Shown here: positions 9,727 through 61,654 of the stretch, piece after piece
How the letters are laid out: each line of letters opens with the position of its first letter
Numbering within the stretch: position 1 is the stretch's first letter
Assembly: GCA_016865015.1 (NCBI GenBank)
Contig: CP018226.1
Location: forward strand, 2,511,001-2,575,000
Length of the DNA stretch: 64,000 nucleotides
Direction: 5' to 3'
From: Rhizobiales bacterium IMCC20636
GTDB lineage: Bacteria; Pseudomonadota; Alphaproteobacteria; Rhizobiales; GCA-2746425
Translations under genes and position numbers: made by a program
The notes under the pieces: model-generated
What the model was told of the DNA's origin: nothing
The model's database searches: none
What the model saw: only the letters and a program-made list of their open reading frames with translations

Positions 9727-9999
9727 TGCGTTCACAGAGTGGATTTTCGGAACAAGTCCGAAAATGACGGCGCAGGGACTGGATGTGATTCTGTGAACAA
9801 TACAATGAGACGTGAATTTGAGAAGATTTGCATGCGAAGGACGCTCTGCCAGTAATGATGTCGAAGGCCTTTGCCAGACGCCCCACCGGTATACTCTCAG
9901 TCATCCCTCCGCCAAACAAGCCGTCATTCTCGGACTTGTTCCGAGAATCTATCTTGGCGAGCCTCCGATCATCCCACATGGACGCGCATGTAGAATTGG
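9727..9999 (-). repeat. 273-bp dispersed repeat element, copy 1 (reverse orientation)
   Basis: The reverse complement of this segment aligns over its whole length with 60449-60714, as judged by eye. It has a hairpin near each end: ATTTTCGGA-ACAAG-TCCGAAAAT at 9743-9765 and ATTCTCGGA-CTTGT-TCCGAGAAT at 9926-9948, in inverted orientation, flanked by GACGG. The short ORFs here (encoding IDSRNKSENDG-like strings) come from the repeat and are not genes. It resembles a non-coding MITE-like element. Confidence 0.8.
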
Positions 10000-52607: not shown

Positions 52608-52702
52608 GACTCTGTTTCTCCTTTACCGGTTTGTCCTCCGGAAAGCAGTCCACGTTGGTTTGTCTAATTCGGATGAAAAAGGCAAAATCAACGCGACCGG
52701 AC

Positions 52703-52722
52703 GGTTTGGCGTACACCAAACC
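52703..52722 (-). promoter_or_regulatory. leader hairpin in rpsB 5' UTR
   Basis: GGTTTGG (52703-52709) and CCAAACC (52716-52722) make a perfect 7-bp stem with a 6-base loop, inside the predicted rpsB leader about 96 bases before the start codon. S2 is known to autoregulate rpsB-tsf through leader structure in other proteobacteria; this stem is a candidate part. Confidence 0.5.
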
Positions 52723-52746
52723 AGCTTTCCGTGTGTGATGGCGCGC

Positions 52747-58693: not shown

Positions 58694-60022
58694 CTATGAA
58701 TTCAGCGTAGCCTGTAATTTGTTGAATGCTGCATCCGGTGTCAGGCTTTCGCGTGCGCCGGTGCGACGATTCTTCAGTTCAATTTCTCCGCTTTCGACGC
58801 CCTTCGGTCCGATAATCAGTTGCCATGGCAAACCGATGAGATCCATCGAAGCAAACTTTCCACCGGCGCGCATGTCACGATCATCGTAAAGCACGGACAT
58901 TCCGGCGTTAGTAAGGCGCTCGTAAAGACCTTCGCAAGCAGCATCCGTGGCTTCATGGCCGGCTTTCAGGCTGATCAGACCGATCTGGAATGGCGCAACC
59001 GATTCAGGCCAGATGATGCCGTTTTCATCGTGGCTGGCTTCAATGATGGCACCCACAAGACGGGACACGCCAATGCCGTATGATCCCATATGAACCGGGA
59101 CATCCACTCCGTCCGGGCCAGCAACGCGGGCATTCATCGGTTCGGAATATTTAGTGCCAAAATAGAAGATGTGGCCGACTTCAATACCCCGGGCCGACAC
59201 GCGGTCCTCTTCTGGAATTTCGGCAAAGGCAGCCTCATCATGCATTTCTTCAGTGGCTGCATATTGAGCGGTGTATTTGTCCACCCATGGCGACAGATCA
59301 CCGTCAAAATCAATATTTTCGTCGGGCACAGGCAAGTCGAGGAAATCACGATGGCAGAAGACTTCGCTTTCGCCGGTATCCGCCAAAACAATGAATTCGT
59401 GCGTCATGTCACCGCCAATCGGGCCGGAATCCGCTTTCATCGGAATCGCGGTCAGGCCGAGGCGCTGGTAGGTTCGCAGATAGGCGACAAACATCCGGTT
59501 GTAGGATTTGCGCGCATCTTCCTTGGTCAAATCAAATGAATAGGCATCCTTCATCAGGAATTCCCGACCGCGCATCACTCCGAAACGGGGACGTACTTCA
59601 TCGCGAAACTTCCACTGGATGTGATACAAATTCAACGGCAGGTCCTTGTAGGATTTTACCGACCCACGGAAAATGTCAGTGACCATCTCCTCATTGGTGG
59701 GGCCAAACAGCATATCCCTATCATGGCGGTCGGTGATGCGAAGCATCTCTTTGCCATAATCATCATACCGCCCGCTTTCCTTCCATAAGTCTGCAGGCTG
59801 GATGGTCGGCATCAGCAGTTCGACGGCACCAGAGCGATTCTGCTCTTCGCGTACAATCTGATCAACCTTTTGAAGCACAGCGTGGCCAAAGGGCAGCCAG
59901 GAATAAATTCCGGCGGATTGCTGTCGGATCATGCCGGCGCGCAGCATGAGACGATGAGAGACGATTTCCGCCTCCTTTGGAGTTTCTTTTAGAATCGGAA
60001 GGAAGTAACGGGAAAGACGCAT
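58694..60022 (-). CDS. proS: prolyl-tRNA synthetase (short alpha type)
   Basis: Class II synthetase for tRNA-Pro, 442 aa. This is the alphaproteobacterial form lacking the INS editing domain. Motifs: [20 protein letters not shown] and [21 protein letters not shown] (motif 2), [14 protein letters not shown] and [15 protein letters not shown] (motif 3). Leads the leftward proS-lolC-lolD group. A separate Ala-Pro deacylase would be needed in trans and is not in this window. Confidence 0.96.
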
Positions 60023-60179
60023 CGAGAATCCGTTTGTAACAATCGTTAATTATTAACGAGAGAGAAACCGTATGGCAGGGGAAAACACAAGCCTTTTGTT
60101 GGAAACAACCTGCATGGTCTTCGCCAGCGCCAATTCAAACTCGTCTGATAAAAAAATGCATTTCAGTGGTCACAAAATA
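60023..60179. other. proS upstream region
   Basis: Gene-free. It holds the leftward proS promoter, not resolved by eye, and lies back to back with the candidate sRNA promoter. Confidence 0.5.
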
Positions 60180-60208
60180 GTGACAAAATGAATTTTCACC
60201 GTTAGTTT
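60180..60208 (+). promoter_or_regulatory. predicted promoter of the candidate sRNA
   Basis: GTGACA (60180-60185) and TAGTTT (60203-60208) with a 17-bp spacer. A transcript would start near 60215, at the base of a 9-bp hairpin. Confidence 0.5.
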
Positions 60209-60214
60209 ATCTGA

Positions 60215-60381
60215 GAAGGTGACGTAGTGTCACTTTCTTTCGCGGTCTTAGTCTTGGGAGGGAGTGTTTCCATTGCGCGGTTTTTCCAGCGCAGATTCGG
60301 AACGAAGTCTATTCAATTCGGATTGGGAACAGGAACGCGGAACTGGAAAGAGCGGAGGTTTATCCTCCGCTCTTTTTTTTT
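60215..60381 (+). ncRNA. candidate small RNA upstream of proS, about 165 nt
   Basis: A plausible promoter, a 5' stem GAAGGTGAC/GTCACTTTC (60214-60236), a purine-rich single-stranded middle (CTTGGGAGGGAG and GGAACGAAG), and a perfect 12-bp terminator stem with eight or more U residues together outline a transcription unit with no protein frame. Position between proS and the DUF1467 gene is, as I recall, that of the rhizobial alpha-r9 (Smr9C) trans-acting sRNA, of similar length. That identity is from memory and needs an Rfam check. Confidence 0.55.
60347..60381 (+). terminator. strong intrinsic terminator of the candidate sRNA
   Basis: AAAGAGCGGAGG (60347-60358), loop TTTAT, CCTCCGCTCTTT (60364-60375), then an unbroken T run to 60381. 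No protein-coding gene on this strand ends here, which is why a non-coding transcript is suspected. Confidence 0.93.
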
Positions 60382-60448
60382 GAATTTGCGAATATGAGAT
60401 CAATGGAACAGCGCTTGACGCGCGGTTCATTCAATTGATCTGTCGCGA

Positions 60449-60714
60449 CCAATCTCTACATGCGGGCAATTCTACGACTCGCTGAGATAGATTCTCGGAA
60501 CAAGTCCGAGAACGACGATGTGTGTGGCCGAGGGGTGACGGAGAGTGTACGGGAGTGCGTATGGCAATGGCCTGGTTATGATTACAGGCAGAGCGTTTTC
60601 CGGTATGTACGTACAGCCCTTGAAATCCACGTCTCAGCAAAATGCTCATAGAGTCACACCCAGCTCCCCCCCGTCGTTCTCGGACTTGTTCTGAGAATCT
60701 ACTCTGTGAACACA
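60449..60714 (+). repeat. 266-bp dispersed repeat element, copy 2 (forward orientation)
   Basis: Aligns end to end with the reverse complement of 9727-9999: shared blocks include AGATAGATTCTCGGAACAAG, GGCAGAGCGT, CACGTCTCA, CGGACTTGTTC and ACTCTGTGAAC. The terminal hairpins lie at 60491-60513 and 60676-60698 in inverted orientation. A 10-bp length difference near the CTACATGCG end separates the copies. No transposase is inside. Confidence 0.8.
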
Positions 60715-60982: not shown

Positions 60983-61246
60983 TTAATATGTCGGCAAGAA
61001 TGGAAAATCATCCAGACCAATTCCGGCCACCACACGTGCGTAATAGAATCCGGCAAACAGGACAAATGCAATGATGGTGGTGGCGATCGCTTTCTTGCCA
61101 AGGCTGGCTTTGATCGGTGCGCCACGGTCTGTCCCCAGCGCCATATCCTCGCCCTCGTGCTGAGAGCGCACACCAAATGGAAGGGTCACAAACAGGACCA
61201 ACCACCAAATGATGAAATATATTGCAAGGCCACTTGCAAACGACAT
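60983..61246 (-). CDS. DUF1467 membrane protein, 87 aa
   Basis: Small inner-membrane protein with two helices: SFASGLAIYFIIWWLVLFVT and KAIATTIIAFVLFAGFYYAR. Between them is the conserved cytoplasmic FGVRSQHE...GTDRGAPI loop that defines the DUF1467 family of alphaproteobacteria. Function unknown; it sits 3 bp after mce, a constant neighbour in the order, and so is probably cotranscribed with birA-rnj-mce. Confidence 0.92.
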   Translation of the reverse strand: MSFASGLAIYFIIWWLVLFVTLPFGVRSQHEGEDMALGTDRGAPIKASLGKKAIATTIIAFVLFAGFYYARVVAGIGLDDFPFLPTY

Positions 61247-61249
61247 TGT

Positions 61250-61654
61250 CTAAACCTCTTCCAACTCGATGAGTGTGCCCTGAAAATCTTTCGGGTGCAG
61301 AAACAGCACAGGTTTTCCATGCGCCCCGATCTTGGGTTCACCATCGCCCAGAATACGCACGCCGTCTGCCTGCAATTTGTCGCGGGCTTTTAGAATATCA
61401 GCAACCTCGTAGCAGATATGATGTATGCCACCAGATGGATTCTTCTCCAGAAACCCGGAAATTGGAGAGTTCTCGCCCAAAGGCTCAAGCAATTCAATTT
61501 TGGTGTTTGGCAGTTCAATGAACACCACAGTGACACCCTGTTCGGCAATCTCAATCGGCTCTGATACCGTAGCGCCGAGGGTTTCGGTGTATTGCCGTGT
61601 GGCGGTCTGCAAGTCCGGAACGGCTATTGCGATATGGTTCAATCGGTCCAGCAT
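61250..61654 (-). CDS. mce: methylmalonyl-CoA epimerase
   Basis: Converts (S)- to (R)-methylmalonyl-CoA in propionate and branched-chain breakdown, 134 aa, glyoxalase/VOC fold. LNHIAIAVPDL gives the first metal His, then FIELPNTKIELLEPLGENSP and the second His in GGIHHICYEV, with the last Glu in GTLIELEEV. Lies 19 bp after rnj. Confidence 0.95.
   Translation of the reverse strand: MLDRLNHIAIAVPDLQTATRQYTETLGATVSEPIEIAEQGVTVVFIELPNTKIELLEPLGENSPISGFLEKNPSGGIHHICYEVADILKARDKLQADGVRILGDGEPKIGAHGKPVLFLHPKDFQGTLIELEEV

Follow-up and report, generated by a model that had tools for sequence, protein, structure and literature searches.

The window analysed here is a 64,000-nucleotide stretch of the genome of the Rhizobiales bacterium IMCC20636. 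On its plus strand, between the divergent proS gene and a minus-strand gene that we take to encode a DUF1467-type membrane protein, lies a compact unit (60179-60381) composed of a promoter, a hairpin, a conserved block, a variable middle and a terminator (Table 1). The gene beyond, on the minus strand, is presumably a methylmalonyl-CoA epimerase-like gene (mce). The unit is predicted to be a free-standing sRNA gene that is transcribed away from proS and presumably expressed in IMCC20636.

Table 1. Predicted features of the sRNA unit and its neighbours (window coordinates)
Feature	Coordinates	Strand	Basis or remark
Promoter, AGTGAC - 17 nt - TTAGTT	60179..60207	+	alphaproteobacterial sigma70 type; conservation; architecture as in the mapped S. 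meliloti sra32 promoter
Putative ar9 sRNA, about 165 nt	60214..60380	+	Rfam ar9, R2 model, fold z; putative 5' end within 60211-60218
5' hairpin SL1, 10 bp	60214..60238	+	fold; sequence variable among relatives
Invariant block CGCGGUC-UU-AGUCUUGGGAGG	60241..60261	+	antisense to αR8 core and 5' arm of αR8 terminator
CGCG closing the long-range helix with 60241-60244	60336..60339	+	invariant in alignment A2
Intrinsic terminator and U run	60345..60381	+	predicted; helix with compensatory changes among relatives
proS (prolyl-tRNA synthetase), divergent, syntenic	58694..60022	-	neighbour
DUF1467-type membrane protein (presumed), far neighbour, syntenic	60983..61246	-	neighbour
Methylmalonyl-CoA epimerase-like gene (presumed), syntenic	61250..61654	-	neighbour

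The -35 element of the promoter is GTGAC, written AGTGAC in the alphaproteobacterial convention (60179-60184), and is separated by a 17-nt spacer from the -10 element TTAGTT (60202-60207). An E. coli-type promoter scan did not list this promoter, which therefore does not match the E. coli-type consensus. Comparison with relatives revealed [GA]TGAC upstream of 138 of 150 loci with a T/C-T/C-A..T -10 element at n17, and the mapped promoter of the S. meliloti orthologue sra32 reads gaTGAC-n17-CTA.AT (PMC2245857). In the window, the -35 box overlaps a GTCAC-N6-GTGAC inverted repeat (60169-60184) that is possibly a regulator site; several other genera carry CACAAA..GTGACAA at the equivalent place.

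Folding of 60210-60381 gave -69.4 kcal/mol (z -5.1), a value that none of 200 shuffles equalled. The terminator helix comprises 14 pairs (60345-60377) followed by the U run, and both sides change among relatives in six of its eight pairs in the alignment behind model R2 (described below). The four CGCG closing pairs of the long-range helix never vary and therefore lend no covariation support. The initial annotation of this DNA had proposed a 17-bp-spaced promoter, a hairpin at the 5' end and a terminator followed by a long U run, all of which were borne out, and its length of about 165 nt is consistent with the predicted unit; the middle, described there as purine-rich, is so only in part and is better characterized by a conserved GGGAGG block.

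The same annotation had guessed that the unit may be a divergent member of the rhizobial ar9 family and named an Rfam ar9 covariance search as the check. The Rfam model RF02343 matched 60211-60378 over its full length (1-149/149) with 33.6 bits (E 7.6e-4 for 481 bases), below the Rfam gathering score of 45 bits. That cut-off is a curator's choice rather than a biological trait: at E<=0.001 the model matched 83 of 297 genomes of the order, of which 48 reached 45 bits and 35 fell below. In a whole-genome search of a same-genus genome, ar9 scored 40.7 bits (E 4.8e-5). A broader covariance model, R1, was built with the sequence of the window itself, so that a match of R1 to the window is no independent evidence; model R2, constructed from 22 sequences of other genera only, was used instead and matched 60241-60378 with 72.8 bits (E 4.4e-17), with nothing comparable elsewhere in the window. 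Other Rfam families hit on this stretch (HrrF, sraA and others) were discarded as chance-level terminator matches.

The features that characterize ar9 are present at the locus, namely the core CGCGGUC-N-AGUCUUGGGAGG, the adjacency to proS, the terminator hairpin with a U run and the sigma70-type gaTGAC-n17 promoter. All testable biological traits that define ar9 were found here, leaving the curated Rfam score as the only point at which the locus falls short. The unit is thus, as predicted from its sequence, an orthologue of rhizobial ar9 (SmrC9/sra32/SmelC289), and the guess made in the initial annotation is supported. It resembles ar9 (RF02343) in its position between proS and the DUF1467 gene, orientation, promoter type and length class as well as in the invariant core, the closing CGCG helix and the terminator, but its middle is longer and its SL1 and terminator sequences differ. 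The RNA ar9 (SmrC9) was discovered in 2007; in S. meliloti its transcript measures about 149 nt and adjoins proS, which is also the neighbour of the rhizobial members (PMC3927594), and SmrC9 co-precipitates with Hfq (PMC2848018).

The published range of ar9 covers Rhizobiaceae, Brucellaceae and Phyllobacteriaceae (PMC3927594), whereas the family delineated here is far wider. Model R1 recovered members from 157 of the 297 order genomes, spanning 69 of 122 genera, with the weakest matches counted on score alone, and a class-wide R1 search returned only two matches outside the order (E 1.5e-4 and 6.2e-4), both of which adjoin syntenic neighbours of the ar9 locus. The shared-core pattern occurred in more than 117 named contigs, which belonged to Hyphomicrobiales wherever the title names a group. 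The gene order proS / DUF1467 / mce / RNase J recurs across Hyphomicrobiales along with the invariant core, and only 4 of 152 loci lacked all five of the flanking genes considered (proS, DUF1467, mce, RNase J, lolC/E).

The most conserved part of ar9, the block CGCGGTC-N-AGTCTTGGGAGG, in which 19 columns are identical throughout 22 members from other genera, is complementary to another sRNA. The fixed core TTTCCTCCCTAGACTT of αR8 (RF00519; suhB family, MmgR in Sinorhizobium and SisA-D in Caulobacter) is followed by a 5' terminator arm GGCCGC or similar, and among 25 genomes the ar9 block is antisense to it over ~20 bp in most lineages, with one fixed mismatch opposite an αR8 U in most of them. 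αR8, with its invariant seed UUUCCUCCCUAGACUU, would thus be the partner and target of ar9, not its homologue. IMCC20636 has a single αR8 gene at another locus (C1:1230441-1230517, 70.4 bits), and its 4.79-Mb genome contains CCTCCCNAGACT at three sites: the αR8 core, the antisense of ar9 itself and one more.

Duplex energies of full-length ar9 and αR8 were uninformative (5-9% of shuffles equal) because the terminators dominate, and the core block was then tested alone. The window block and its own αR8 form a predicted duplex of -37.1 kcal/mol, equalled by 1 of 3000 dinucleotide shuffles; in five lineages, 0-1 of 3000 such shuffles of the ar9 block reached the observed energy. Among 42,644 pieces of the window, the antisense of ar9 itself was the only one with a better score. 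When internal folding was allowed, binding was still predicted to be favourable, at about -13 kcal/mol (-13.0 net; -1.9 for a core mutant), but this value is only moderately unusual, being equalled by 5 of 150 αR8s whose 5' part had been shuffled. The ar9 block itself is largely paired in the predicted fold, and a chaperone is therefore likely needed.

Pairing is weaker in family f44 (-22.6 to -31.0 kcal/mol), where ar9 has TGTC in place of the AGTC of the others and αR8 reads CCTCCTTAGAC. The ar9 residue opposite the αR8 U (60255 and equivalents) is T in most of the order, C in families f36 and f42, and never A; in other orders, A stands at this position in most ar9-like units, which pair fully. 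One ar9 lineage (L025, L027, L030, L031, L037, L038, L055) carries a second GGGAGG in the middle that could be a second αR8 site. In G046 and G085 (family f43), ar9 is present and αR8 was undetected by RF00519, which may reflect a divergent αR8 or a counter-example to titration of αR8 by ar9.

Covariation between the two RNAs within Hyphomicrobiales was not significant (p 0.07) because both cores are nearly invariant there, and the 1-kb region upstream of proS was therefore examined in 60 families from other alphaproteobacterial orders. About 7-9 of these 60 proS regions contained genuine ar9-like units, several with a GATGAC promoter and a terminator, to which the two R1 matches in the same neighbourhood were added. 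For 11 outside genomes with both RNAs, the sites were located by the αR8 consensus only and then paired with the αR8 of the same genome. Cognate pairs averaged -42.7 vs -35.6 kcal/mol for non-cognate pairs, a difference that no permutation out of 50,000 reached in these genomes, which were selected for an αR8-consensus site and whose lineages are not fully independent. Sham sites (second-best, third-best and antisense) displayed no cognate effect (p 0.09 to 0.59). Matched changes include αR8 AGACUGAAGCCACC with ar9-like GGUGGCCUCAGUCU (G342), and ACUCGGGC with GCCCGAGU (G320) vs ACUUGGGC with GCCCAAGU (G509). Three of the best 'anti-αR8 sites' beside proS (L279, L289, L299) were dropped as αR8 genes on the opposite strand; in these non-Hyphomicrobiales, the place upstream of proS that holds an ar9-like unit in others is taken by the αR8 gene itself, running against the ar9 direction.

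In the literature searched, no function was assigned to ar9 and no link between ar9 and αR8 was found, and the near-perfect, covarying complementarity predicted between the ar9 block and αR8 is a new result. Since the most conserved part of ar9 is a near-perfect αR8 antisense, ar9 probably soaks up αR8, and we consider it likely that it acts as an Hfq-dependent αR8 sponge. The block CGCGGUC-N-AGUCUUGGGAGG would pair with the single-stranded αR8 seed UUUCCUCCCUAGACU and the 5' arm of the αR8 terminator, thereby hiding the seed used to block ribosome-binding sites. Pairing would probably take place on Hfq and possibly lead to decay of the pair, and the αR8 targets would be released once the seed is hidden. 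For IMCC20636, complementarity to the αR8 seed and an αR8 gene in the same genome were found; expression, Hfq dependence, pairing in the cell and the direction of the effect are inferred.

A precedent is provided by CrfA of Caulobacter crescentus, a proven Hfq-dependent sponge that pairs with the same αR8 seed and lowers SisA (PMC12559287). As compared by its published description, CrfA is likewise complementary to the αR8 seed, in its case via a G/A-rich second stem-loop, and the residues replaced in its mutant M2 are G49-G54 (PMC12559287). If the mapped 5' end of S. meliloti is transferred to the Sinorhizobium locus L040 and positions are counted by eye, GGGAGG of ar9 also occupies positions 49-54, a coincidence that is a hint only. 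We lean slightly towards the view that a proS-linked αR8 antisense is old in Alphaproteobacteria, and that ar9, the ar9-like units and perhaps CrfA represent one co-evolving sponge whose function is common to all ar9 members.

The covarying antisense match gives ar9 (SmrC9) a concrete, testable role. A sponge circuit known from one organism (CrfA-SisA, in carbon starvation) would then also operate in rhizobia and related bacteria, in which polyhydroxybutyrate storage is limited by αR8 (MmgR). The covarying RNA-RNA pair can be used for tracing the circuit by sequence alone, and should a single co-evolving sponge be confirmed, the αR8 network would have an RNA brake of its own throughout much of the class.

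Other readings of the ar9 block were weighed against titration of αR8. Hfq binding fits any trans-acting sRNA, fliM and a cytochrome oxidase gene were predicted as sra32 targets (PMC2245857), and even CrfA was initially interpreted as an activator of mRNAs; ar9 might accordingly be an ordinary trans-acting sRNA on mRNAs with an incidental αR8 match. We regard this as unlikely, because the best-conserved block forms an antisense of about 20 nt to an sRNA, αR8, with which it covaries, a G-rich block resembling a ribosome-binding site would be an unusual seed against mRNAs, and the sra32 residues involved in the predicted targeting, nt 60-95, lie outside the conserved block.

The complementarity of GGGAGGA to CUCCUCCC, the aSD1 motif of AbcR1/2 (PMC8844928), raises the question of whether the block acts as a general decoy, sequestering several anti-Shine-Dalgarno sRNAs (AbcR1/2, NfeR1) rather than αR8 in particular. 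The αR8 pairing, however, runs beyond GGGAGG through AGUC and GCGG, and with GGGAGG held fixed the flanks are still beyond chance, 0 to 34 of 3000 shuffles being equal in the five lineages. In addition, a search of the IMCC20636 genome gave no match for ar14 and only noise, no credible match, for ar15. A general decoy is thus very unlikely.

The pairing itself is symmetrical, and in Caulobacter the overexpression of SisA lowers CrfA and yields a CrfA fragment (PMC12559287), as would be expected if αR8 silenced ar9 and ar9 had another function. Yet beyond its paired block, closing helix and terminator, ar9 is highly variable, which leaves little room for a separate conserved function, and we judge this reverse relation highly improbable.

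Two GTG-start frames of 56 and 39 codons (60227-60397 and 60264-60383) would allow a small protein to be encoded, and four same-genus genomes with 82-90% identity to 60180-60381, one over part only, were available for comparison. This last reading can be dismissed as already contradicted, since stops or frameshifts interrupt both frames in three of these four genomes, relatives differ by indels whose lengths do not preserve a reading frame, not being divisible by three, and RNA covariation is seen in the terminator helix. No conserved peptide is therefore seen, in agreement with the initial annotation, which had found no ORF in the unit and named a conserved peptide frame in relatives as the contrary sign. 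Titration of αR8 by ar9 remains the favoured reading.

Two further elements were observed in the window. Between ar9 and the DUF1467 gene, a segment of 214 bp is flanked by a 30-nt inverted repeat (97%; 60488-60517 and 60672-60701). The core of this repeat is found again, likewise as an inverted pair, at 9750-9766 and 9925-9941; these pairs constitute an intergenic MITE-like repeat. The Rfam family rpsB sRNA (RF01815) matched 52611-52735 on the minus strand with 44.2 bits vs a gathering score of 40.
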